Shown here piece by piece: positions 31,810 to 46,317 of a stretch of 59,219 nucleotides of DNA (within the stretch, counting starts at the first letter, position 1; each line of letters opens with the position of its first letter). Position numbers and translations under genes: made by a program. The stretch comes from Clostridia bacterium (GTDB taxonomy: Bacteria > Bacillota > Clostridia > Christensenellales > Aristaeellaceae): positions 1 through 59,219 of the forward strand of contig JAGBDE010000036.1 in the NCBI GenBank assembly GCA_017937655.1. Direction: 5' to 3'. Below the pieces are notes generated by a model. The model saw only the letters and a list, made by a program, of their open reading frames with translations. It had not been told where the DNA came from and searched no databases.

Positions 31810-32553
31810 TTATTGGAGATACTTGCCGTATTTTTCCATGAACTGCTCGTATTCGTACCGATCCGTGATCCAGAAAATCACATGGGCGGTCTCCACCCCA
31901 AGGCGGGTATAGGCCTCCCAGCGAGTGTTGCCGTCGTTGAGCTCAAACTCGCCCTCGGTTTTGCCCTCGGGGATCAGGTAGTGGACAATCAGCGGCGGAA
32001 GGTCGGCGTTCTGCTGGACGGCCCCCTGAATCTGCGCCACATGGTTTTCCCAGACTTCGGGGTGGATGCGGTAGCGCATGCCCTCTTCCGGCCCGGTGCA
32101 ACGGGTGAAAAGTTTCAGGGGCATTTCCACAGGGCCAAGAAACATCCGGTCCACAATTTTCAGACCGTCGGAAAAAGGCTTGTTGTGGCCGTCGCCCAGC
32201 AGATAGGCATGAACCCAATCCTCCAGCTGGCCGGCCGCCGCCCATTCCTTGGCCGATGTAAGCGTGCCCTTGTGCTGCATAGGAATCATCTCCTTTTTGT
32301 TGTACACGATCCGTTTGATGGATTCGCAGGAGAGATGATACTCATCCGCCAGCTGATCCGCAGACTGTCCCAGGGCAAACTGCGCACGGATGTCCTGGTT
32401 CCGCTGGCGGAGATATTCCCTGTAGCCGGATGCGGCGCCCCATTCCCGCTTGCGTTCCCGGGAGGGAATGTAGACCAGCTGGCCGGAAATGTACTTCTGC
32501 ACCTGCCTGAGCAGCGGCTCCGGCAGAAGATCCCGGGCGTTCTCGTACTTCAT
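31810..32553 (-). CDS. HTH (CD3324-like) domain fused to a ParB-like domain
   Basis: 247 residues in two parts. Residues 1-90 match the small CD3324-type family: KYENARDLLPEPLL, VYIPSRERKREWG, SGYREYLRQRNQDI and a helix-turn-helix ending LSCESIKRIVY. Residues 100-247 carry a ParB/sulfiredoxin-like core: LPPLIVHYLIPEG, then FELNDGNTRWEAYTRLGV, which recalls the DG.nR motif of ParB CTPase/nuclease domains, and VIFWITD. I infer a DNA-binding regulator or nucleotide-using enzyme. Start at 32553 is preferred over 32559 because GGGAG then sits at normal spacing. Confidence 0.75.
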   Translation of the reverse strand: MKYENARDLLPEPLLRQVQKYISGQLVYIPSRERKREWGAASGYREYLRQRNQDIRAQFALGQSADQLADEYHLSCESIKRIVYNKKEMIPMQHKGTLTSAKEWAAAGQLEDWVHAYLLGDGHNKPFSDGLKIVDRMFLGPVEMPLKLFTRCTGPEEGMRYRIHPEVWENHVAQIQGAVQQNADLPPLIVHYLIPEGKTEGEFELNDGNTRWEAYTRLGVETAHVIFWITDRYEYEQFMEKYGKYLQ

Positions 32554-32761
32554 GGGCATCTCTCCCTTCGGGGGATATTGTACAGCACAGTGGGGGAGGG
32601 GAATAGACCCGGAATGGGTATAGGCGTTTGTGACATAAAAAGGTCATCAAATTGGTTAAATTTAAAAAATGTAGATCTACCAAAATAAACTGGAGAGTAC
32701 ATGGTTTAGTTTATGGTGGATCCCCGACCCTGTCAAGGAAAGATATTCATTTTGGCATATG
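32554..32761. other. Intergenic region upstream of the HTH/ParB gene
   Basis: AT-rich with a candidate TACAAT -10 on the minus strand at 32583-32578 but no good -35. Nothing else recognised. Confidence 0.4.
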
Positions 32762-32806: not shown

Positions 32807-35800
32807 TTAAGGAAGCTTCCTTTTTTTGTGTACAAGCAAGATCATAATCAACAAGGATACTCCCGCCAGAGTGAGCCACATAGCAATAGGCTGACGGTCT
32901 CCGGTATCGGGCAGCTTGGTATTGATGATGGTTCCGCCGTTGTCAGCGCAGTCGGCCTTTCTGCCAATAGCGTTCTGATAGGCAGCTTCATAACCGGGTA
33001 GCGGTTCTTCCATTACGGTGTAGACCGCAGGTTCTCCTTTGTACTGATCAGGTAAATCGTAATACTTGTACCAACCATTGCTGGGCGTGGGAGTCTTGAT
33101 ATCAAGCTTTTCACCGTTGCAGTACAACACAAGCGTGATGGCAGGCGGAGTTTCGTTTTCCTTCAGACCACGCCAGCGTTTGTACACCTGGAACTCAGCT
33201 TGTCGAACTTTGCGATTAATGATGGTACCACCGTTATACACTACGTTGGTTGTGTTTTCGTGAGGCGATACATTTTCATAGATTGTCACAAAGCCCTCGA
33301 AGTACTTCTCCTTGGCGCTGTACTCGATGGTAAAGCCATCATCATCGTACATACGCAGGTTTTCATAAGTGTACACATCGCCGTCGCGGGTATATTTGGG
33401 CTGAGGATCCATCTTTTTGCCATTTGCATACAGCGTCAGGGTAATGGCGCCGCTTCCGCCTTCCCAAATCTTCTTTACCGTAAAGGAGGTGGTTTTTGCA
33501 GCGTTGGTAAATCCGACTCGGATCAGCTCGTTGCGAAGGATGATGCCCTCTGCGCTGCCTTCGGTAAGCTCGCCCACATAGCCGTCGCCGGTGGTTTCAG
33601 CAACTGCATAGTTCACGCCGATGGGCAGTTCATAGATACGCATCGTTTCGCCATGCTTAAGCTTGAAATGGAAAGCGCCGTCTTCGCCGAAGGTCGCCAT
33701 GAGTGCGCCGTCGGGGCCAACTGCAGGAAAGCTACCGGTTACAGGCTGATCACCCTGGGAGAGTGTTACCGTGAAGGGGAATGCCTTTTGCAAGTTGCCT
33801 TCTGTAACAGTCTTGGTGATTTCCATCACGCCCAGGGGACTGTTGGTAAGGGTTGTAGCATTGCCCTGCGTGTTCACGCTGGAGGAATATCCAGGAACAG
33901 GAAGCTCGCGAGCTTCATAGGTATACTTCATACCCTGTGCATCGAAGGCGGGCAGATTGGTGAAGGTATAAGTCCAGCCGCTTTCAGCCGTAAGGCTTGC
34001 TTCACTGTATTTCACCTTGTTCTGGTACAGCTCCACGGTGATGCTGTCAGGCCGAATTCCCAATGCATCTTCGTCGTCCAGCCAGTTCTTGCTGATGCTG
34101 TGAGAGGTGGTATCGCTGTAAGTGTTAGTGAAGAGAACAGGCTGACCGTTCAGGTCGTCAGTAATCAGCAGCGTTCCGTCTCGGTTATCAGTGATATTCA
34201 GGGTAATGGTCTGAATAACCGTATCATACGTGACGCCTGCAGCGCCAGAATCCACTTCAACAATCTGGTAGACTTTTGTTCCCACATCCGTTTCGCAGAA
34301 AGTGAGCGCGGGGAAGCTGATGTTACCGTTTTCATCATTGCGGGCTGACATCAGTTCATAGCCTTCCTCATCCAGCAGAGCGAAGACAAATTCATCGGCC
34401 TGCAGAGGCTTACCGGAAAGGCTCTTCTGTGCCACAGGGCTGTATTCACCAGTTGCGGCGTAGGTGTTGGTGAAACTTGCGCTTGCAGTCTGGTTGACCA
34501 CGATGTTTCCAGTAGCGCCGAGGCTCTTCTGGATAAAGCCGGCCGCATCAGCTTCGGTAACAGCATAGTTTGCACCGTGGGGGAGACCAGAGATCAGGGC
34601 GGTTTCGCCACCGGTAAGTGTGAAGACAGCGCTACCGTCAGTCACGGTGAGATACTCTGTATTACCACTCTTCTCAATGAAGTACTGGCCGCTGAGGGGC
34701 TGACCCGCCGCGTCCGTAAGCAGCAGGGTAAAGTAGAATTCCTGCGTATCATGAGCAGGATTGCTGCTGACCACAGTCTTGCTGACGCTCAGACTACCAG
34801 GCTTGACTTTGTTTGTAATGGTATTCTCGCCATCAACATTGACCTCGTCCGACACATCATGCAAGGTGTAGGTAATGGTGGGAGTCAGCAGACCCTTGCC
34901 GTCCTTGTCTGCCATGTTGATCGCCACGAATACCACGTCATTGCAGTAGGAAACAGTTTCATCATTTCCGGGTACTTCCACCACAGCGTATAGGTAATCG
35001 CCCTCGGAAGTGTAGGGAATATCCGGGAAGATGACGCTGCCGTCAGCGGCATTTGTAGCAACAGAAACAACGCTATTGTTGACATCCACCAGTTGGAAGG
35101 TGAACTCATCCTCGGTGAGAGTACGACCGTTCAGAACCTTGTTGATTCTGGGCGCGGCTACGCCCTTGACCACGTAGGTATTCAGAAGGTTCTCTTTGCT
35201 GGTTTTGGTGGACTGGATCACGCCGGACTTGGTGCTGTCCATAGTCCAGCCAGGCAGCGAATCAGGTTCAGACACCTGATAGTGCACCCCGGCGGGGATG
35301 TTGGTGATGTTCAGGACGCCGCCGTTGCCCATTTTGGCGGTCAGGTATCCGTCAGTAATGGAGTAGGCGCTTCCGTTGGCAGTCACCTCGCCAGCGAAGG
35401 GCCGTCCCATGGCATCCGTAAAGAGTACCTGAACGGTGAAGGTCTGGCCTGCGGCGGCATCGGTTGCACCCTTGGTGGTTTTGCTGACGGTCAGGGCGCC
35501 AGGCTTGGTGCTGTTTACGAACACAGGAGGCTGATCGTCCGGGTATTTCACTACCGCAGAAAGATTGCCCTGGGCATCATCTGCCACGGTAACAGTGACA
35601 GTATAGGATGCCTTATCATAGTTGATGGTGCCGTCCTTGCCCGTCACCTCGGCGATAGTGTAGGTATGCGTGCCCACATCGTCCTTGCCATACTCGATCA
35701 TATCAAAGATAATACTGCCGCCGGCGGCGTTCTGCTTGGTTTGCAGCACGGAGCCGTTTTCACTGAGGGTGAAGGTGAAGGCGTTGGCCTCTGCGCCTGT

Positions 35801-38800
35801 GCCGTCCATGAGCTTAGAGGCACGGAGGGTGACGGAGGTCTTGTTGGGGTTGTACTCGTTGGTGAATTGAACCTCGCTGGTTTCAAGGGGCAGGATGACG
35901 CCATTTTCGTTTACCTTATTGACCAGCACCCAGCCAGCAGGGGTTTCTTCCCAGACTTCGTAGGCGGTGGAAGCGGGGATGTTGTCGAAGGTGATGGTTT
36001 CGTTCACCTTGAGATTGACGGTATAGCCATCTTCGGTAGCGGTGACTGCGCTCTGTCGGGGCTGCCATAGTGCCGTGAGGGTGACTTCCTGATTCTCACC
36101 ATATGTATTCCCCTGAGGAATGATGCAAATGCCTTCTTCTACAGGGTAGGTATTGGTGCCATCGGTGAAGCCCACCAACTCGTGACCGAAGAAGTAGAAA
36201 GTAGGAACAAAGCTGTACTCTGTGCCGCATTCCACCCACTGGGATTTCATCTCACCAGCGCCATCACCGTGGTCAAAATTCAGCTTGTAACTGATTTTAT
36301 GCCACACCCATACACCTGCATGTCCACCATCTCTAAACAGTTCAGACAAGGTTAATACCTGTTCTGGATCTTCTGCATTGACCCATTTGCCATCGTATGG
36401 TGCAGTACTTGGTGGATAAATATAACTGTCCAATTCAGCATAGTCATTACCGATTTTGATCCAACTTAGATTCCGCACATTGGTGTACATCTTATCCGAT
36501 GTTTTAGGCCATCTTGTATTCAGTGAACTGATATCCAGTTTTTCGAGAGCAGTACACCCGTAGAACATATACCAGAACCACGGGCTGCTTCCGTTTCTCG
36601 TAAAACTGCTCAAATCCAATTCTTTCAATTTAGTACATTCACGGAACATATTACTCCATCTTTTGTTTTTTGAAGTATCAAAATTCCGAACATTCAAACT
36701 TTCCAGATTGCTGCAACCACCAAACATGTAGTCCATATTCGTTACATTACTTGTATTGAAGGTTGAAACATCAATTTCTGGCAGGGTACTGCACTTGGCA
36801 AACATATACTGCATATCATTAACCCTGCTGGTATCGAAAGTGCCCAAATCAAGTTCAGTTAACCCAGAACAGTTATTAAACATATGGTCCATGCTCGTTA
36901 CCAGACTGGTGTTAAATGAGCTTAGGTCAATTGACTCTAAACTGCTACATCCATTGAACATGCTTTGCATGGATGTCACATTGCTGGTATCAAAGTTGGT
37001 CAAATCAAGTTCTTTCAAGCTGGAACAACCGCTGAACATTCTCTTCATATTTGTGATGTTCTGGGTAGTAAAATTGCTCAGATCGAGTTTTTCCAACGCC
37101 ATACAGTTTTCAAACAATCCAACATCATTCCAGTTGATTGATGTAACTTTACTGGTATCGAAGCTGCTCAGATTGAGGCTTTTGAGAGCTTTACAATCTG
37201 CAAACATACCACCCATTGCTGTCACATTGCTTGTATCAAAATTCGACAAATCCAGTTCTTGCAGTACATAGCAATCTTCAAACATTCTGTTCATGTCCTC
37301 AACTATGCCCGTGGAAAAATTACTCAAATCAACAGCAGGAAGTTCATAACAACCTTTGAACATTTCGTTCATATACTTAACATTGCTTGTATCAAAACTG
37401 CTGATCTGAAGCTGAGTCAATTTAGAACAAGCGGAAAACATTTCTGACATATTCACAACATTGCTCGTATTGAAATGCCGCAAATCGAGATTGGTTAGCT
37501 TGGTACTATAGAACATTTGCGACATATACTTTACACTGGAAGTGTCAAAACTGCTCAGATTGATACTACGCAACGCCTTACAGTAATAGAACAACTGTGA
37601 CATGGTTGTAACATTGCTTGTATTGAAACTGCTGAGATCCAAGCTTGTCAATTCTTGGCAATTTCCAAACATTGCGGTCATATCCGTAACTTTGGCAGTA
37701 TTGAAATGCTTCAGATTCAGACTTTGTATATCGTAGCAGTTATAAAACATATATTGCATTTGTTTTGCATTCTGCGTATCAAAACTGCTTATATCAATAC
37801 TTGTCAAATGATCGCAATCCTTAAACAAATAGGACATATCTGTTACGGCACTGGTATTCAGTCCATTCAGGTTTGCACTTACCAAAGCCGAACAATTTTG
37901 GAACATATACGCCATATTGGTTACGCCACTTGTATCAAGCTTATCCAATGTAACTTGCTCAAGTTTGCTTTGATTCACAAACATCCACTGAAGCGTTTTT
38001 AGTTTTATATCTCCCTCCATTGATACGGAAACAATCGAATCCTTATTAGCATACCAAGGCCAAGCATTGTAACTTGCCGCAATATTCTCAAAATTTCTGA
38101 ATACATGATAAACCGTGCCATCAACAGTTGTGCTGGCGCTATTTGTTTCTCCAAATGTAAAAGTTACATTTGTATTATCAGATGCTGCTCCATTATAGGT
38201 ATAGCTACCATCTGTATTGGCATTCGCACGGAAGAACACCATCTCGCCGGTCGTTTCATTGAGAATTGCCAAGCCTTCACCATTCAGATTGCTTGCAGTA
38301 TATGCTTGGGTGGGAGCTTGGACAACAGGTTCAGCATGATCCATTACAACAGGCTGCACTGTAGGAATGACAACCGGCTGTTTTGTGGGCTTTACCGTGG
38401 GCTGCACCGTGGGGGCAGGCGTAATAAGCCCCGACGACTCGCCAATGGTCAAGTTAGGCGTAGGTGTAGGGGGTACAGCCAAAGCTGGCGTTACTTCCGG
38501 GCCGGAGAAATCATAGTCGATATCTGGTGCCGCTTCGCCAGACAGTTTTACATGGAAAGTAAACTCCTGTCCGGGATTGCTGCTTCCCGTGCCCTGCACC
38601 CGCTTGGTCAGGCTTAGGCTGCCGGGTTTGAGGGTGTTTTCAAACACGGGCATGGTCAAATCACCGGTGATGGTCATTTTGCCCGGCACGGTTCCCACTC
38701 CGTCGCAATATGTGCATTTTCTAATATCATCATCGTCCTTGATAGTCGCATAATAGTGATTTCCTCCACCGTACGCATCGCCGTAGGAATATGCGCTATA

Positions 38801-41800
38801 CACCGTCATGAACGTTTGTCCGCTCCAAGACCGTATCTCCACATAATATCCGCCGCTCGCAAATGATTCTGACAGACCGCATCCGCCGCATTTGCTGCAT
38901 TTTTCACCGTTTGCATCCTTTCGGAAACCACCACATGCGTCACAGAAGCCATTTCTTCCATAATTTACCTTTCTGGTAGACGTAGAGCCATTTTTGCTCA
39001 AATATGTTACACATAAATACCCCACACCAGAGCCCTTGCAACTGGAGCAGTCCACAATTTCCCGCTCATATCCCTGCGAATCCTGCGAAAAGCTCAGGGT
39101 ACCGTCGCCATTGTCAAACACCCTGAGGGTGATGACATATTCCTGATTAGAGTACACCACCGTATTGTCCCGGCCCTGCTTTTCGCGGATCAGGTATGTG
39201 TAGGTGGCAGGTTCGTCATCGTTCAGGCTCACATCGTTCTGGTCAAATTTGAGCGCGCCAAACACAATGTTGCCCTCGGCATCGTTGGTGGCTGTTCCAA
39301 GGCAATCGCCGGTGATATCGCCTGTTGCGTTGTCAAAAGCGTAAAGCTCAAAGGTGAATTCTTTTTCTTTCAGCGGGCGGCCTTCCAGCACCTTCCAAGC
39401 CTTGAGCACCACTTCGCCCTCGGCAGTATAGGTGTTATCAAAGGCCAGACTATCGGCGGTGCCGTTCGCCGTTGCAAAGGTGGGGGTCACGGTCAGGTTG
39501 CCATCGCCGGTATCATCGGTAACAGCAATGGTAACAGCGTATTCCTTGGCATCGTAGCCGTAACCGTTCGCGCCCATGTTCACTTCCCGCACAATGTACT
39601 GGAAGGTGGAGCCCGCATCGGCCTCGGTGTAGTCCAGCTGTCCAAAGATGGCCTCGGCAGCGGATTCAATATCCTTGCCGCTACCGCCGGTGGTATTGCC
39701 TTCCTCCGGCGCATTCACCCGGGCGGTGCGGATCACCTCACCGTAGGTGGGGCTATCCGGGTTATTATCCACCAGTTCAAAGCGGAACTGGTTCTTGCGG
39801 ATCTGACGGCCTCCGAGGCTCTTGTCAACGGTCAGCTGTGTGACACCTTTGGCAGAATAAGTGTTGGTGAATTCTGCGCGGGCAGTCTGTCCGGCACGAA
39901 TTGTTCCTTCCGCATCCTGAGATGTGACGGTGAAACCAGCAGCTTCTGTTTCAAATACCTCGTAAGCGCTCTCGGAGGGCAGGTCATAAACAACAATTTT
40001 CTGATTGCCCATCAGATGGAAGGGATCGCCATTTCCAATCTTGCCTTCTGCAACCTGCTTCCATTCGTCTCCGTTTTGCTCATAGACAATATAGGCATAC
40101 TTGTCCATCAGCGGCACAGCAGGCTGAGTGGGATCGGTCTGCTCCTGCAGCAGCACCAGCGTAAAGGTAAACTGCAATTTGGCAGCCGTGGCGGTAGCGT
40201 TCTCTACGGTTTTGAGCACTTCCAGGTTGCCCATGGGATGATAGGTGTTATTGACCATGGTGTAGTCAATGGATTCGCCAGCATACTTGGGCACGTATTC
40301 TTCTTCCACGCGGTAGACGTATTCATGGCCACCCTCGGCGTACTTATCAAGTTTGCCGAAGGAATAGGTCCATTTGCCATCGGCATCAGGGGTGACAACT
40401 CTGCTGGTCACATACTCGTCATCGCGATACAGTTTCAGGGTGACGCTCTGGGGACGCATGCCGTTGGCGTTGTCATCGTCGTTCCAGACCTTTTCGCCGC
40501 TGACGGGGATCTGTTCATTGGGATGCACGTTGATGAGCCGATAGTGGTTCAGGTCGATAAATTCTACCTTGCTCTCATAGCCCTCCACCGGAACTTCGGT
40601 GAAGGTGTACAGGTAGCGTTGGCCGTTTTCATTCACGATATCCAGCTGATTGAACTGCGCAGACCAGTTATTGGTCTGGTCCATCACGGCGGTGACAGGC
40701 TGATTCTTGGAATCCATTACCGGCTGGAAGTCTCCGGCCAGGCCCGCTACGCGACGCTCCACCGCCACAGTAACAGCCTCAGGGCGCAGACCGTCGTGGT
40801 TGTTTTGATCCTTCCACACCTTTTCCAGCTTGATCACACTGGGCACAATACCTACACGGGTGTAGTCGTTACGGATCATACGATAGTTGGACAGCCAGTT
40901 AGTACCGTTGGCGTTGGTTTGGCCCTGAATGAGGCGCACACGGGCGTTGTTGTAGGCATACATGTTGTTGGTGGGATCCATGGCGGCTTCCCAGTCCACA
41001 TCGCCGTTTTCGGTACGGGCGTATGCACCCTTGGCGACCCAAACATCCGGATTGCCGTTGTCATCAGGGGCTACCATGCGCAGATAACCGGAAATGCTTT
41101 CTTCCGGTTTCAGGATGAATTCAGTGCCGTCGGCACAGGTGGTGGCGTCAATGGCAATGGCGCTCACGGTCAGACCTGCAGGCACTGTCCAGATGCCTTT
41201 TGCATCCAGTTCAGCCACCTTCCAGATCTGGCGGTTGGTGATGTCATAGTTGCCGGAAGCAAAAAGTTCGGTGTCTGTATCAAAGTTGTCATCAGTAGAA
41301 CCGGATTTGCTGTCCGCAAATTGCAGCCCTGGCAACTGGGAATAGAGCAGCACGGGAGCAACGCCTGCGTTGACAAATTCGCTCAGGTCAACCTTTTGCA
41401 GCGTGCCGCGCCACTGGCCCTTTCCCTTCCAGACGCCGGACCAGTCCTTGCGTTCCTGGGTATGCGCAAAGTCTGCTGCCTTGGTGGCATCGGTGTCTTC
41501 GTCTGCGCTGGGATCGGGGATAATGTAGTTTTCAATGGTATCGTAAATGATGATGCCCTTTGTAGAAGTGGTCTCCGCAGAGGAAACACGCAGGCGGTAG
41601 GAATAGCCAAGGCCTTCGTATACTGTCACCTGTTCCTGTCCGTCTAAGCCCTGGGTCCAGATGCCCACAAAGTCATTGGAAACGGCTTTGTCCAGACCAG
41701 ATACCGCATAGGTCAAAGAAGTGACATTGTTGCTGCATTTGCCATATACGAAACGGTTTTCGCCGGGCTTTGTGTTGGGGTTGAGTCCAGTCATGGCAGA

Positions 41801-44578
41801 TGCAATATCGGCGGGCATGCTGGGAGTGGTGGCATTGTTGCCGCCCAAGGGGTTATCAGGGTCACCTTTTTGATTCTTGATGGTACCCAGGGTGCCATTC
41901 CTGAGATTATCCACGGTGGATTCAAAGGCCACATAGTTGACCAGATTTTTGCCATATTCATCCATGTCCAGCCAGGTATATGCAGCGGTAAAAGACAGCC
42001 TGGGTTGGTCGGCATAGCCAAGGCCGTTAGTATAGGAGGGCTTGGGTGTCAGCTCGGCCTCCACTACCAATAGAATGCGACCGGTGTCGTTGTAGTTGTC
42101 AATGGTATAGACGTTAGTGATCGTATCTTCATCGCGCAGCTTGATGGTATCCAGCAGAGGTACCACATGGGGAGGCAGCAGATCGTACCACACACCGGAG
42201 GTTTCGGCAGGAATAACACCTTCCTCTACGGCGGCATCATATTCGCTACGGTTTTTGAGATTGCTCTGTTCGGTGAGGGTGGCAGTATAGTGGATCAGCA
42301 GCCGCTGGTTTTCGTAATCACTTTCGTAGGTGCCGCTCTTGCTGAGGGATACGCCATAGCTGGCGCCGGCATAGGTGGCGAGGGAGGAGTCAAAATCGTC
42401 ATCCAACACCAATTTGCCTTCGCCGTTTTGATCCACCCAGCCGTACACGTCCATGATCACATCGTTTTTGAATTTGGTGGTGGGGTTTTCATTCTGCTCA
42501 AACAAATCCTTCACAATCTGACGGGTACGGTCAGAGGGCTTCATGGTAATGATGGGATACACATACCAGTCGATCATGGCAATATCGCATTTTTCAGCGG
42601 TCTTGCCATTGAATACATTGCTAACAAAGGTATGACGAACGTCTGTCACATTTTTGGGGAAATAGACGGTCATGCCGGAGGCAGTACAATCGGCGGACAG
42701 ATTTTTGAATGCAAAAGTACCCGTGCCATCCTCGCCCCAGGTGGCAATGGCGGCAGTATGCCATGTTTCCTCGTTGTTCAGCTGGTATTCAATCAGCAAA
42801 TCAGGGGTGGGCAGGGAACTGTCGGTCTTGTAGTTCCATGTGCCGTTCGAGTTTTTGGCATAGCGCATCTTACTAGGCACGGAGATGCGCAGGCCTTTCA
42901 TTTCAAAGTCCTCAGAAGTGAGGGGAGTGGTTTCGTAGTTGAAGAAGGTCTGGAAATCGTGAGTGATCTGCTTCCAGCCCAGCAAACCAAAGTCTGCATC
43001 GGTCAGTTCCATTTGGTTGAGCAGGGCGTTATCAGCAGAGCCAGGGTCGCCCACACCAAAAGTTCGGGGAGAGGTCCACGGATAGCCATAGCCGATGGTT
43101 TCCACCACGAAGTTCATGTCCACAGGCTGTTTGTTTTCCAGCTTGTTGAGAGCATAGCCGTAGAGCCAGTCTTTATGGGTTACCTGCTCCGTCCATTTAT
43201 TCACGGCAAAATGTCCGGTGGGGCGGCGATAACGGATAGGGGAATAAGGGACGATCACATTGTCTACGGCGGTGGTTACCTCTTGAGGATCGGCAGGCTT
43301 ATTCCACTGGTCGGCCTTCACCGACGCGTCCGTTTCTGTGAGGATCCACTCCACTTCGTTTTCGAAGTAATAGACACGCTGGGGTTCGTTGGCCCGAGGA
43401 ACATAAAATTTATCCTTGCGGTAAGCGGACCACATATATGCCGTATGAGAATATTGGATGCCAGTAGAGCTGATGCCGATATGATCTGCAATCTCGGCAG
43501 TAAAATCCAGATCGCCGTCTTTTAGTATGGTTCCCTGATAATTGGTGCTGCCCAGGAAGATGCCCTCGGTGACAAAAGAGGGCGTTTTTTTGCCGTCGGA
43601 GCCTACTACATATTCATAAGCGTCAGAAAGAACGTCCTGGATGTCCAAAGAGAAAGGCTGGTTATTTACATGGGAATGATAGGTATACCAGCGAACGTAA
43701 ACATAGTCTTCAGGATCAGTGCCTGCCGGCAAATTGGCCAGTAGTTCCTTGCTGAGTTCAGCGGGCGCGGTTTCGTACACGTCGCCACCTTTGTAGGCGC
43801 TGGTGATTTTGGCCCGGGTATCGATTTGCGCATCGATGGGCAGACTGGTCAACTCGATCGTGTTGCCTTGATTGGTCAGCACTTCGCAATGTGCAGTAAT
43901 GGGGTCGCTGCGGCTCATATCCACCACGTTCATGGGTTTGATATCGGTAATGGCAACTTCAATAGAGACGCTGGAAGTGGCGCCGATGGTACGGGTGTTT
44001 GTCAGTACGTAGTTATCACCGATGATCTGCCAGTTAAAATCCGCCTTTTTGGAGGGGGCGGCAGGCAAAGGCAACTCCAATGAACCGATGAGCTTGTTGG
44101 GATCTGTTACGCCAACCGTTTCGCCCTCCGCGCCGGTGGGAGTAAACTGGCGACTATGCCATACCTGTGCAGGAATGGTAATTGTGATATCGCCGGGAGC
44201 ATAGTCATACTGACCGGAGAACTCCACCTCTATCTTATAAATCATGGATAGGGGAGACGCGCTGGTGGTGGCAAGATACAGATGGCTATAGTCATCCAGT
44301 TCCTCTTGCGAAACAGCCTGACCATTGTTGTTGGTCTGGCTGTCGGGAGTGATCCAGACAACTTTGATACCTTCGATCTTAGAGCCATCCAGATCGTTGG
44401 TGCCAGAAGAAGCCGCGGGAGTATCGGATGCTTCTTCTGCGATGGCATAGGTCAAGCCGGTATGCGCGGAATCGTCGGCTTGCCAAAAATCGGTTGCCGG
44501 AAGAAGACCCTGAAAGCACAGGATCATTGCCAGCAGCAGACTCCATACCGTTTTGATCGATTTGCGTACACCCTTCAT
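32807..44578 (-). CDS. Giant sortase-anchored mosaic surface protein (3,923 residues)
   Basis: Cell-wall adhesin-like protein. Signal peptide at residues 1-35 (KTVWSLLLAMILCFQG). About 40-1,240 is a long beta-rich region without a family I recognise. Cna-B-like domains start near 1,245 (LEKVWKDQNNHDGLRPE) and 1,358 (EKVWNDDDNANGMRP). Pilin-type isopeptide-like domains start near 1,581 and 1,720; the second is interrupted by a four-CxxC module (38694-39049). A Pro/Thr linker (about 2,025-2,090) leads to about 18 BspA/DUF285 repeats, an InlB-like segment, further pilin-like and DUF7601-like domains, and two C-terminal Cna-B domains. The anchor LPDTG (32914-32900), a hydrophobic segment and KKRK end it. 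The ATG at 44578 is 6 bases after AGAGGTG. No sortase gene is in the window. Confidence 0.93.
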   Translation of the reverse strand: MKGVRKSIKTVWSLLLAMILCFQGLLPATDFWQADDSAHTGLTYAIAEEASDTPAASSGTNDLDGSKIEGIKVVWITPDSQTNNNGQAVSQEELDDYSHLYLATTSASPLSMIYKIEVEFSGQYDYAPGDITITIPAQVWHSRQFTPTGAEGETVGVTDPNKLIGSLELPLPAAPSKKADFNWQIIGDNYVLTNTRTIGATSSVSIEVAITDIKPMNVVDMSRSDPITAHCEVLTNQGNTIELTSLPIDAQIDTRAKITSAYKGGDVYETAPAELSKELLANLPAGTDPEDYVYVRWYTYHSHVNNQPFSLDIQDVLSDAYEYVVGSDGKKTPSFVTEGIFLGSTNYQGTILKDGDLDFTAEIADHIGISSTGIQYSHTAYMWSAYRKDKFYVPRANEPQRVYYFENEVEWILTETDASVKADQWNKPADPQEVTTAVDNVIVPYSPIRYRRPTGHFAVNKWTEQVTHKDWLYGYALNKLENKQPVDMNFVVETIGYGYPWTSPRTFGVGDPGSADNALLNQMELTDADFGLLGWKQITHDFQTFFNYETTPLTSEDFEMKGLRISVPSKMRYAKNSNGTWNYKTDSSLPTPDLLIEYQLNNEETWHTAAIATWGEDGTGTFAFKNLSADCTASGMTVYFPKNVTDVRHTFVSNVFNGKTAEKCDIAMIDWYVYPIITMKPSDRTRQIVKDLFEQNENPTTKFKNDVIMDVYGWVDQNGEGKLVLDDDFDSSLATYAGASYGVSLSKSGTYESDYENQRLLIHYTATLTEQSNLKNRSEYDAAVEEGVIPAETSGVWYDLLPPHVVPLLDTIKLRDEDTITNVYTIDNYNDTGRILLVVEAELTPKPSYTNGLGYADQPRLSFTAAYTWLDMDEYGKNLVNYVAFESTVDNLRNGTLGTIKNQKGDPDNPLGGNNATTPSMPADIASAMTGLNPNTKPGENRFVYGKCSNNVTSLTYAVSGLDKAVSNDFVGIWTQGLDGQEQVTVYEGLGYSYRLRVSSAETTSTKGIIIYDTIENYIIPDPSADEDTDATKAADFAHTQERKDWSGVWKGKGQWRGTLQKVDLSEFVNAGVAPVLLYSQLPGLQFADSKSGSTDDNFDTDTELFASGNYDITNRQIWKVAELDAKGIWTVPAGLTVSAIAIDATTCADGTEFILKPEESISGYLRMVAPDDNGNPDVWVAKGAYARTENGDVDWEAAMDPTNNMYAYNNARVRLIQGQTNANGTNWLSNYRMIRNDYTRVGIVPSVIKLEKVWKDQNNHDGLRPEAVTVAVERRVAGLAGDFQPVMDSKNQPVTAVMDQTNNWSAQFNQLDIVNENGQRYLYTFTEVPVEGYESKVEFIDLNHYRLINVHPNEQIPVSGEKVWNDDDNANGMRPQSVTLKLYRDDEYVTSRVVTPDADGKWTYSFGKLDKYAEGGHEYVYRVEEEYVPKYAGESIDYTMVNNTYHPMGNLEVLKTVENATATAAKLQFTFTLVLLQEQTDPTQPAVPLMDKYAYIVYEQNGDEWKQVAEGKIGNGDPFHLMGNQKIVVYDLPSESAYEVFETEAAGFTVTSQDAEGTIRAGQTARAEFTNTYSAKGVTQLTVDKSLGGRQIRKNQFRFELVDNNPDSPTYGEVIRTARVNAPEEGNTTGGSGKDIESAAEAIFGQLDYTEADAGSTFQYIVREVNMGANGYGYDAKEYAVTIAVTDDTGDGNLTVTPTFATANGTADSLAFDNTYTAEGEVVLKAWKVLEGRPLKEKEFTFELYAFDNATGDITGDCLGTATNDAEGNIVFGALKFDQNDVSLNDDEPATYTYLIREKQGRDNTVVYSNQEYVITLRVFDNGDGTLSFSQDSQGYEREIVDCSSCKGSGVGYLCVTYLSKNGSTSTRKVNYGRNGFCDACGGFRKDANGEKCSKCGGCGLSESFASGGYYVEIRSWSGQTFMTVYSAYSYGDAYGGGNHYYATIKDDDDIRKCTYCDGVGTVPGKMTITGDLTMPVFENTLKPGSLSLTKRVQGTGSSNPGQEFTFHVKLSGEAAPDIDYDFSGPEVTPALAVPPTPTPNLTIGESSGLITPAPTVQPTVKPTKQPVVIPTVQPVVMDHAEPVVQAPTQAYTASNLNGEGLAILNETTGEMVFFRANANTDGSYTYNGAASDNTNVTFTFGETNSASTTVDGTVYHVFRNFENIAASYNAWPWYANKDSIVSVSMEGDIKLKTLQWMFVNQSKLEQVTLDKLDTSGVTNMAYMFQNCSALVSANLNGLNTSAVTDMSYLFKDCDHLTSIDISSFDTQNAKQMQYMFYNCYDIQSLNLKHFNTAKVTDMTAMFGNCQELTSLDLSSFNTSNVTTMSQLFYYCKALRSINLSSFDTSSVKYMSQMFYSTKLTNLDLRHFNTSNVVNMSEMFSACSKLTQLQISSFDTSNVKYMNEMFKGCYELPAVDLSNFSTGIVEDMNRMFEDCYVLQELDLSNFDTSNVTAMGGMFADCKALKSLNLSSFDTSKVTSINWNDVGLFENCMALEKLDLSNFTTQNITNMKRMFSGCSSLKELDLTNFDTSNVTSMQSMFNGCSSLESIDLSSFNTSLVTSMDHMFNNCSGLTELDLGTFDTSRVNDMQYMFAKCSTLPEIDVSTFNTSNVTNMDYMFGGCSNLESLNVRNFDTSKNKRWSNMFRECTKLKELDLSSFTRNGSSPWFWYMFYGCTALEKLDISSLNTRWPKTSDKMYTNVRNLSWIKIGNDYAELDSYIYPPSTAPYDGKWVNAEDPEQVLTLSELFRDGGHAGVWVWHKISYKLNFDHGDGAGEMKSQWVECGTEYSFVPTFYFFGHELVGFTDGTNTYPVEEGICIIPQGNTYGENQEVTLTALWQPRQSAVTATEDGYTVNLKVNETITFDNIPASTAYEVWEETPAGWVLVNKVNENGVILPLETSEVQFTNEYNPNKTSVTLRASKLMDGTGAEANAFTFTLSENGSVLQTKQNAAGGSIIFDMIEYGKDDVGTHTYTIAEVTGKDGTINYDKASYTVTVTVADDAQGNLSAVVKYPDDQPPVFVNSTKPGALTVSKTTKGATDAAAGQTFTVQVLFTDAMGRPFAGEVTANGSAYSITDGYLTAKMGNGGVLNITNIPAGVHYQVSEPDSLPGWTMDSTKSGVIQSTKTSKENLLNTYVVKGVAAPRINKVLNGRTLTEDEFTFQLVDVNNSVVSVATNAADGSVIFPDIPYTSEGDYLYAVVEVPGNDETVSYCNDVVFVAINMADKDGKGLLTPTITYTLHDVSDEVNVDGENTITNKVKPGSLSVSKTVVSSNPAHDTQEFYFTLLLTDAAGQPLSGQYFIEKSGNTEYLTVTDGSAVFTLTGGETALISGLPHGANYAVTEADAAGFIQKSLGATGNIVVNQTASASFTNTYAATGEYSPVAQKSLSGKPLQADEFVFALLDEEGYELMSARNDENGNISFPALTFCETDVGTKVYQIVEVDSGAAGVTYDTVIQTITLNITDNRDGTLLITDDLNGQPVLFTNTYSDTTSHSISKNWLDDEDALGIRPDSITVELYQNKVKYSEASLTAESGWTYTFTNLPAFDAQGMKYTYEARELPVPGYSSSVNTQGNATTLTNSPLGVMEITKTVTEGNLQKAFPFTVTLSQGDQPVTGSFPAVGPDGALMATFGEDGAFHFKLKHGETMRIYELPIGVNYAVAETTGDGYVGELTEGSAEGIILRNELIRVGFTNAAKTTSFTVKKIWEGGSGAITLTLYANGKKMDPQPKYTRDGDVYTYENLRMYDDDGFTIEYSAKEKYFEGFVTIYENVSPHENTTNVVYNGGTIINRKVRQAEFQVYKRWRGLKENETPPAITLVLYCNGEKLDIKTPTPSNGWYKYYDLPDQYKGEPAVYTVMEEPLPGYEAAYQNAIGRKADCADNGGTIINTKLPDTGDRQPIAMWLTLAGVSLLIMILLVHKKRKLP
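32900..32914 (-). other. LPDTG sortase sorting signal
   Basis: Codes Leu-Pro-Asp-Thr-Gly, followed by a hydrophobic stretch (MWLTLAGVSLLIMILLV) and the positively charged KKRK tail. The complete tripartite signal for class A/E-type sortase anchoring. Confidence 0.95.
36470..38005 (-). repeat. BspA/DUF285 leucine-rich tandem repeats in the surface protein
   Basis: About 18 copies of a 26-residue unit with consensus L-x-x-L-(D/N)-L-S-x-F-(D/N)-T-S-x-V-x-x-M-x-x-M-F-x-x-C. Nearly every unit ends in Cys; copy 6 has Thr there and copy 11 has a 4-residue insertion. The repeats diverge at the DNA level, so they are old rather than recently amplified. The family is used for adhesion and surface binding. 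Confidence 0.92.
38694..39049 (-). other. Four CxxCxGxG-type cysteine motifs inside a pilin-like domain
   Basis: Reading N to C: CSSCKGSG, a lone Cys, CDACGG, CSKCGGCG and CTYCDGVG, the layout of the DnaJ cysteine-rich zinc domain but with longer spacers. The insertion separates EREIVD from the last strand VPGKMTITGDL of the surrounding domain. Confidence 0.8.
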
Positions 44579-44692
44579 TTGCAGCACCTCTTTGGTTATG
44601 GTAATCCAGGCGTCTAGGAAAGAACGTTTTGATCAGATGCCTGGAGAAAGAAACAAAAGGCAAAAAAGGCCCATTTTTCATTAAAATATAAT

Positions 44693-44831: not shown

Positions 44832-46317
44832 ATGGTGCAGCGTTCGATTTCATATCCGAACCGGTTTGTTCTTTCTCAACACTTGCCTGCAGGTCTCCGA
44901 AGGTGGCTTGTACGGTATCCTCCTTGAAATTGAATGTGATCTCCAACTTATCATCATACAGGAAGATGGCATTGACGAAGGTATCAACCAGCATCTACCG
45001 GTGCTCTTTACGCTTTACATCCAGCTTCCTGAAACGCATCAACCAGAATCGCAGGGCATCCTCTTCGATCTTTTTGCTGGTAAGGTTCTCGTGGGCAATC
45101 TTGTTTTCCAGCTCATCCCGTGCCGCTTCCAGTTCATCCAGCCGTTCTTTGGTGGATCGGTTCAGGATGCCTTGCTGGATTGCGTTCAACAGGTTGTCGA
45201 TGCCTTTGTTGACTTCCCGCAGTTCCCGCTCGTACAGGGGAATGTTCACATTCTCCTGCTCCTGCATCTCCATCAGCTTATGGGCAACATCATCTAATGA
45301 AAGCATCACTTCGAATCAGCTCCATACCTTGGCAACAACCAGATCTTCGATTTCAACCTTGCGCACGGGTTTCTTTCAGCAATTCGTCCGCTTCTTTTTA
45401 ACAGAAACGCATTTGTAGTAATGATGTACTACTCCGGTTCTGCTTGTTCCGCTTTCTCCACAGAGATAGGCACCGCAGTAACCACAGAACAGTTTAGTTG
45501 TCAGGATATAGTCATCCTCCGCCTTGTGACGGGCTGGCGCTTTCCGGTTTTTCTCCATTCTGACCTGCACACGTTCGAACAGTTCAATCGGAAGGATTGG
45601 TGGAATGCCGTCCGGAATCACAATATCACGGTAGGTATACTCGCCAATGTATCGTCTGTTCTTCAGCATCCGCTGAACGCTGTTGAGCGTTGGATCTTCA
45701 CCGAAGTTGTTCTTGACACTATGTTGGATTAGGTAGGCAACCAGATCTTTCATCATTGCGCCTTCCGTATAGCGTTTAAAGATTTCCAACACATGGGGAG
45801 CCGTCAGAGGATCATTCTGAAAATGCTGATCCTTATCAATGATGTATCCGATTGGCTTGTTGCCACCGTTGAACTTGCATTTCAGGGCATTCTCAGTCTG
45901 ACCGCGACTGACTTTTTCAGCCAGATCAGCGGAGTAGTATTCTGCAAAACCCTCCAGCACAGATTCCAAAATGATGCCTTCGGCACCATCCGAGATCAGC
46001 TCCGTGGCTGAACCAACCTTAACACCATGACGTTTCAGGGCAGCCTTGTACCGTGCGCTGTCATAACGATTGCGGGAAAAGCGATCGAGTTTCCAGACAA
46101 TGACCATATCAAACAGATGCTTGCTGCTGTCTCTGATCATATTCTGGAATTCCGGTCGCTTATCCGTTTTGGCAGAATACGCCCGGTCGATATAGTGGCG
46201 CAGAATGGTAATATCATTCTTCTCAGCAAACGCTGTGCACTCACGCAGCCGACCTTCGATACTTTCTTCCCGTTGGTTATCGGAAGAGTATCTTGCGTAA
46301 ATAACCGCCTTCATCAT
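44830..46317 (-). pseudogene. Large serine recombinase, inactivated
   Basis: Residues 1-313 are intact: catalytic N-terminus AVIYARYSSDNQREESIEGR with the nucleophile Ser, KLDRFSRNRYDS, a recombinase domain and a zinc ribbon (CGYC). The frame then meets TGA (45378-45376), and the expected KKPVRKVEIEDLVVAKVW continues after it. A missing G after TGG and a further shift put the coiled coil (45309 to 44995) in another frame. A TAG (around 44996) again interrupts before the end at 44830. This is a member of the family that inserts or excises mobile elements; with at least two stops and two shifts it is not expected to work, although the catalytic domain could be made alone. It overlaps the repressor gene by 4 bp. 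Confidence 0.88.

Follow-up and report, generated by a model that had tools for sequence, protein, structure and literature searches.

The 59,219-nucleotide stretch of contig JAGBDE010000036.1 from a Clostridia bacterium, called the window here at its full length, contains a minus-strand open reading frame (ORF) at 32807..44587 that encodes a giant cell-wall-anchored surface protein of 3926 amino acids with Pfam matches to DUF285, DUF7601, Cna_B and FctA. One FctA domain of this protein carries an insert with four CxxC motifs at residues 1847-1965 (38693-39049), which is the subject of this analysis; all features of the protein given below lie on the minus strand. Motif 1, CSSCKGSG (residues 1847-1854, 39026..39049), is separated by a variable loop of 27 residues (38945..39025) from motif 2, CDACGGFR (residues 1882-1889, 38921..38944), and motif 3, CSKCGGCG (residues 1897-1904, 38876..38899), is separated by a variable loop of 53 residues (38717..38875) from motif 4, CTYCDGVG (residues 1958-1965, 38693..38716). 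We refer to motifs 1 and 4 as the outer pair and to motifs 2 and 3 as the inner pair. Three of the four follow the full CxxCxGxG pattern, and motif 2 lacks the final glycine. An earlier note on this DNA had listed the same motifs (CSSCKGSG, CDACGG, CSKCGGCG and CTYCDGVG) at 38694..39049; all four were located in the ORF, and of these coordinates the end is correct while the start leaves out one base, 38693. None of 200,000 shuffles of residues 1840-1980 (141 residues, 10 cysteines) produced four CxxCxG motifs by chance.

The protein opens with a putative signal peptide (about residues 1-45, 44453..44587), judged by eye from its basic start and hydrophobic core. The N-terminal region that follows (residues 46-1200, 40988..44452) is kept in relatives, which were traced with 201 residues of it; the first 1200 residues had no Pfam match at E 0.01. 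Next come the better of two CnaB stretches (PF05738, residues 1362-1448, 40244..40504), a DUF7601 domain (PF24547, residues 1492-1577, 39857..40114) and an upstream FctA domain (PF12892, residues 1586-1720, 39428..39832). Beyond the insert-bearing domain lie DUF285 repeats (PF03382, seven stretches in the piece scanned; about residues 2200-2680, 36548..37990), which form a neighboring variable region, and a C-terminal stalk of FctA, DUF7601 and CnaB domains identified by Pfam, with approximate limits at 32948..35890. The sequence ends with an LPDTG sorting signal (residues 3892-3896), a hydrophobic stretch and a basic tail (together 32810..32914), and a profile search of the source assembly (2.56 Mb, 94% complete) gave four sortase matches over cut-off. 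The LPxTG motif, hydrophobic stretch, basic tail and genomic sortases, together with the signal peptide seen by eye, mark a sortase-anchored surface protein, as the earlier note had proposed from the LPDTG motif. The same genome encodes a second such giant protein (L061), which is without the insert.

The domain that carries the insert (about residues 1720-1990, 38618..39430) was assigned by Pfam, AlphaFold2 and Foldseek as a CnaB-like isopeptide domain of the FctA type. It scored 53.4 bits against FctA PF12892 (cut-off 22.1), which bears out the placing of the motifs inside a pilin-type domain. In a 280-residue AlphaFold2 model with a mean predicted local distance difference test (pLDDT) score of 61.8 and a predicted template modeling (pTM) score of 0.55, block pLDDT reached 74-95 over the first 120 residues. 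Foldseek recovered from this model the host pilin fold alone; the best matches were FctB minor pilins, four of them at E 0.001 or better (3.7e-5 to 3.8e-4), and weaker ones were T-antigen pilins at E 0.044. The predicted isopeptide residues, called by pattern and by eye, are K1732 (39392..39394), E1802 (39182..39184) and N1984 (38636..38638), the last of these after the insert. All 32 domains in the comparison (31 from family members, one from G913, a genome of another family) have this Lys/Glu/Asn triad, the lysine included; the lysines of L068-L070 and the glutamates of L053, L060 and L072 were assigned by eye where the script pattern had passed over them or put them at a wrong position. The insert sits in the loop between E1802 and N1984, before the predicted isopeptide asparagine. 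This loop is short in relatives without the insert, and the four other FctA-type stretches of the giant protein, when aligned, have no such insert.

The module was first met elsewhere in a genome of the same genus (G012, in a search of 100 related genomes), and a contig scan added one further locus, L010, from a goat-caecum Clostridia bacterium metagenome-assembled genome. With the N-terminal 201 residues as query, 32 matches at E 1e-8 were found in 22 of 308 family genomes, covering 8 of 50 genera. The earlier note had allowed for a sequencing chimera; because the segment recurs in other genomes, a chimera or assembly error is ruled out. Among the 31 scorable relatives, the insert site held at least four CxxC motifs in 16, two in 5 and none in 10, with no case of one or three; carriers of any motif numbered 21, in 16 genomes of 6 genera. 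L073 was left unscored since its contig ends before the domain, and L044 and L074 are duplicates of L010 and L056, respectively. In L049 and L056 the frame is interrupted between the N-terminal and insert-bearing parts, which were scored separately; both parts are open on either side of the interruption, compatible with either an assembly error or a pseudogene. L071 and L072 carry additional CxH and CxxC motifs within the loop between motifs 3 and 4, possibly a third metal site. The two-motif forms have 0 to 9 residues between their motifs. Four of them align with the outer pair, as would be expected of a single zinc site; L064, whose two motifs are differently placed, was left out of this alignment.

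At E 1e-9, our profile A3 was matched in at least 5 of 396 genomes of an order sample (the source genome included, all of the same family), in at least 2 of 391 genomes of a class sample (the source genome and G913) and in at least 1 of 398 genomes of a phylum sample (the source genome), counts from a first look that scored up to seven candidates per genome and may miss two-motif forms. G913, of another family in the same class, has a compact four-motif insert at the same site of a 4305-residue frame, with spacings of 6/7/6. The N-terminal region of this frame (L077, G913:C116) also holds a second, different cysteine cluster (CSGCKTGQSCDGCPDC) at residues 502-517. A quick tree built from 32 rows of the N-terminal part requires at least 6 changes to account for whether any motif is present and at least 10 for the three states; the close sisters L048 and L053, for example, differ, with four versus two motifs. 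By this comparison the module has often been gained, lost or trimmed. A plasmid or phage origin was rejected, as tblastn against 72,556 plasmid and 50,697 phage records gave nothing at E 1. A DNA-level mobile repeat encoding the hairpin is unsupported, the best pair among 11 equal-length hairpins having 62% DNA identity.

The motifs resemble those of the cysteine-rich central domain of DnaJ, and DnaJ_CXXCXGXG ranked first in 12 of 15 Pfam scans of 14 inserts and second in another 2, was missing from that of L051, and stayed below cut-off in all 15. Against PF00684 (gathering cut-off 32.7 bits), the window insert scored 14.4 and 16.7 bits and the best relative 31.9. The motif spacing is 27/7/53 in the window versus 9/14/6 in all 16 DnaJ genes read, no J-domain is among the 13 Pfam families matched by the giant protein at E 0.1, and the one PF00684 match of the genome is in a separate 374-residue frame. 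A true DnaJ fusion is excluded by score, spacing and the absence of a J-domain, so that the likeness drawn by the earlier note holds for the motifs and fails for the DnaJ central domain as such. That domain binds two zinc ions, one through motifs 1 and 4 and the other through motifs 2 and 3. The inner pair of the insert, which is also similar to the zinc motifs of anti-TRAP, aligns with DnaJ motifs 3-4 (hhalign 95.5%, 31 columns); because these two belong to different zinc sites in DnaJ, the match represents sequence likeness and is no proof of the same pairing. Inserts of relatives passed two other family cut-offs that the window insert did not reach, namely BSD2_CRD PF25436 (L010, 28.3 bits, cut-off 27) and anti-TRAP PF15777 (L048, 34.2 bits, cut-off 32), and a search of the window insert against PDB sequences gave no match at E 10.

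The chemistry of the module is most likely that of a metal site, since CxxC motifs occur at the insert site in counts of zero, two or at least four and never one or three, and since no DsbA or VKOR match was found in the 94%-complete genome, in a search confined to these two oxidase families. Together with the glycine pattern, the missing DsbA and VKOR matches favor metal over disulfides. Of the zinc- or thiol-based module that the earlier note had envisaged, zinc is the likelier part, and its proposed roles in folding, sensing or cross-linking found no specific support. PMC5818400 describes ZnJ2, a protein with four CXXCXGXG motifs, as binding zinc and releasing one zinc per molecule, and as having holding-chaperone activity and no reductase activity in an insulin assay.

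As read from the aligned relatives, the motifs are retained while the loops between them vary. In the 16 inserts with at least four motifs, the loop between motifs 1 and 2 ranges from 27 to 74 residues and that between motifs 3 and 4 from 39 to 152, with a spacer of 0-29 residues (median 6.5) between motifs 2 and 3. Loop identities were tabulated for 50 of the 120 pairs, those whose host domains are at least 45% identical; 10 pairs fall within g26 and 40 outside. In the latter (host-domain identity 46-77%), the loop between motifs 3 and 4 was 10-38% identical, compared to shuffle means of 16-25%, and lay within 2 standard deviations of the shuffles in 35 of the 40 pairs. Within g26, we compared L054 with L055, L071 and L056, and L055 with L071, in 60-residue windows. 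Identity was 91-100% over residues 61-1440 and 75-96% over residues 1681-1860, just upstream of the insert; it was 73-76% in the insert for L054-L055 and 23-56% for the other pairings, and directly after the insert it was back to 91-98%.

The insert showed a higher synonymous divergence than the N-terminal part in the g26 pairs L054-L055, L054-L071 and L055-L071, and about double that of the host domain in L054-L071 and L055-L071, a pattern consistent with exchange of diverged alleles, short of proof. In L054-L055, the ratio of nonsynonymous to synonymous rates (dN/dS), from 39 nonsynonymous and 10 synonymous changes, was 1.34 and 1.25 in the two loops, compared with 0.13 for the N-terminal part; positive selection is unsupported, as a ratio above 1 was obtained in this one pair only. 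In all 16 inserts, the G+C content at third codon positions (GC3) was lower than in the codons before the insert, of which up to 400 were taken (mean difference -0.21). It also fell short of the amino-acid-corrected expectation in all 16, with z under -3 for 12 inserts, and for 7 of the 16 no sampled stretch of the same gene was as low.

We propose that the insert may act as an adhesive or antigenic head on the FctA domain, in which zinc knuckles, one pair nested in the other, grip variable loops that can be exchanged, a reading that is evenly balanced in our judgment. At the base, motifs 1 and 4 would coordinate one zinc, with a second bound further out by motifs 2 and 3 in a DnaJ-like nesting, and the two long loops would thereby be fixed as a rigid head. 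The isopeptide stalk would hold this head away from the wall. Recombination may swap the loops, which would serve as the working surface and could bind a changing partner, such as mucin or a plant glycan or another microbe; alternatively, loop variation may represent escape from phages or antibodies.

Several observations weigh against this proposal. AlphaFold2 confidence is low in the insert, with pLDDT below 50 in the window insert except for 50-55 around the inner motif pair, and below 50 throughout in that of L010. The 1+4 and 2+3 pairing is read from motif spacing, the release of one zinc per molecule from ZnJ2 is at odds with two zinc ions per module, and five CxxC motifs (plus a CxH) in L072 and six in L071 mean that the motif count is not strictly even. 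In 5 of the 40 pairs outside g26, identity of the loop between motifs 3 and 4 lay more than 2 standard deviations above the shuffles, so some loops still show kinship. The insert is also not the sole variable part of the protein: within g26, a second dip to 55-90% occurs at about residues 1441-1620, and the C-terminal windows dip as well (in the three comparisons that involve L071 or L056, the last windows are at 48-60% and the first window is at 45-51%). When the window protein was compared with L046, the DUF285 repeats and their surroundings proved variable too, with 0-31% identity in 60-residue windows starting at residues 2041-2701 (gaps counted as mismatches). Loop dN/dS was 0.42-0.85 in L054-L071 and L055-L071, and synonymous divergence in L054-L055 was 0.143 in the insert versus 0.186 in the host domain, hence not above it. 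The GC3 signal is weak in the window insert (z -2.7; among 239 stretches, 45 were as low) and absent in the L056b insert (z -0.3).

Some of these data would suit a plainer account, which we consider unlikely, in which the knuckles merely stabilize a spacer whose loops vary under little constraint and not for binding. Loop dN/dS values near or below 1, the wide range of loop lengths and the lack of the module in 10 of the 31 scorable relatives are all compatible with it. Retention of the motif pairs while the loops diverge speaks against such a spacer, as do the recovery of identity right after the insert and the low GC3 within it, which are more readily explained by allelic replacement than by drift alone. 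Assembly of modules from neighboring molecules or cells, through shared zinc or knuckle contacts, is quite unlikely. Zinc-dependent G5 adhesion offers a model for such cross-linking, and a site formed jointly by two-motif forms of different chains is conceivable in principle. Anti-TRAP oligomers need zinc to form, as stated in excerpted text of PMC2896485; pairing of motifs inside one chain, however, needs no sharing, and variable loops would be unexpected at a conserved self-contact. A thiol or redox device, in which the CxxC motifs would make and break disulfides, respond to oxygen or join with thiols of a partner, is very improbable: the protein is extracellular by its anchor, but CxxCxGxG is a zinc-knuckle signature, the genome gave no DsbA or VKOR match in the search above, and ZnJ2 bound zinc and lacked reductase activity in the insulin assay. 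DnaJ-like holding of unfolded or extended polypeptides outside the cell, suggested by the motif likeness to DnaJ and BSD2 and by the holding-chaperone activity ascribed to ZnJ2 in the excerpt of PMC5818400, is hardly credible given the different spacing and long loops, scores below the DnaJ cut-off and the lack of any DnaJ or J-domain family match for the giant protein.

Directly upstream of the giant gene, the window encodes a serine recombinase with Resolvase and Recombinase domains (44995-46317, minus strand), and a 104-residue frame after it may be its C-terminal part. A link between this enzyme and the module was rejected, as a tblastn search for the enzyme in the loci fetched from relatives, which include short flanks only, gave no match. 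Another gene beside the giant gene (31810-32559, minus strand) gave a Mor-activator match of 24.0, just below the cut-off of 24.9. Elsewhere, a two-motif CxxC hairpin follows the first predicted membrane helix of permeases L036 (G141:C2), L040 (G301:C65) and L082 (G022:C17), which we take to resemble a peptide ABC (ATP-binding cassette) transporter. L036 and L040 surfaced through the motif itself; in a search of 60 genomes, the hairpin was present in one of eight further permeases (L082), and the other seven had a short loop. L042 (G249:C5) is a 90-residue frame with four CxxC motifs at spacings of 3/13/6, near a sequence like the helix-turn-helix gene of the window.

Returning to the proposed clamp of zinc knuckles and variable loops, we suggest more tentatively, with somewhat more doubt than belief, that it may constitute a new class of extracellular recognition module, in which a covalently locked stalk would bear the nested clamp and its two hypervariable loops, with cassette exchange as the source of their diversity. 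Its smallest form, the two-motif zinc hairpin, may also occur in other surface loops, among them a loop in a transporter-like permease from this bacterial family. Should the loops bind ligands, the module would be a small scaffold that displays variable loops without disulfides, as would suit anaerobes, and it would help to show what uncultured gut Clostridia adhere to through their giant surface proteins. The natural series of none, two and four motifs across homologues makes its function testable by comparison.

Open-access literature text searches returned, among the matches listed, no DnaJ- or anti-TRAP-type zinc knuckles in an adhesin, in agreement with the earlier note, whose author knew of no described adhesin with the module. 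Its parts have known counterparts. The host domain shares with the FctA/Spy0128 pilin domain a Pfam score over cut-off, the Lys/Glu/Asn triad and Foldseek matches to pilins. In the adhesins RrgA and Spy0125, the inserts are von Willebrand A or thioester domains, whereas the insert here consists of cysteine knuckles with variable loops. As given in excerpted text of PMC12617251, these two adhesins likewise have a large insert between isopeptide-contributing residues, and CnaA and CnaB folds accept loop insertions, mostly isopeptide or adhesion domains. Four CxxCxGxG-type motifs are common to the module, DnaJ PF00684 and the BSD2/ZnJ2 group; unlike these, the module resides on a sortase-anchored protein, is inserted in an isopeptide domain and has another spacing. 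Finally, the two-motif forms share two CxxCxGxG-type motifs and a short spacer with anti-TRAP, which, according to the excerpt of PMC2896485, has two zinc-binding CXXCXGXG motifs and, in B. subtilis, is a separate regulatory protein of 53 residues, whereas the motifs described here lie in a loop of a surface protein.

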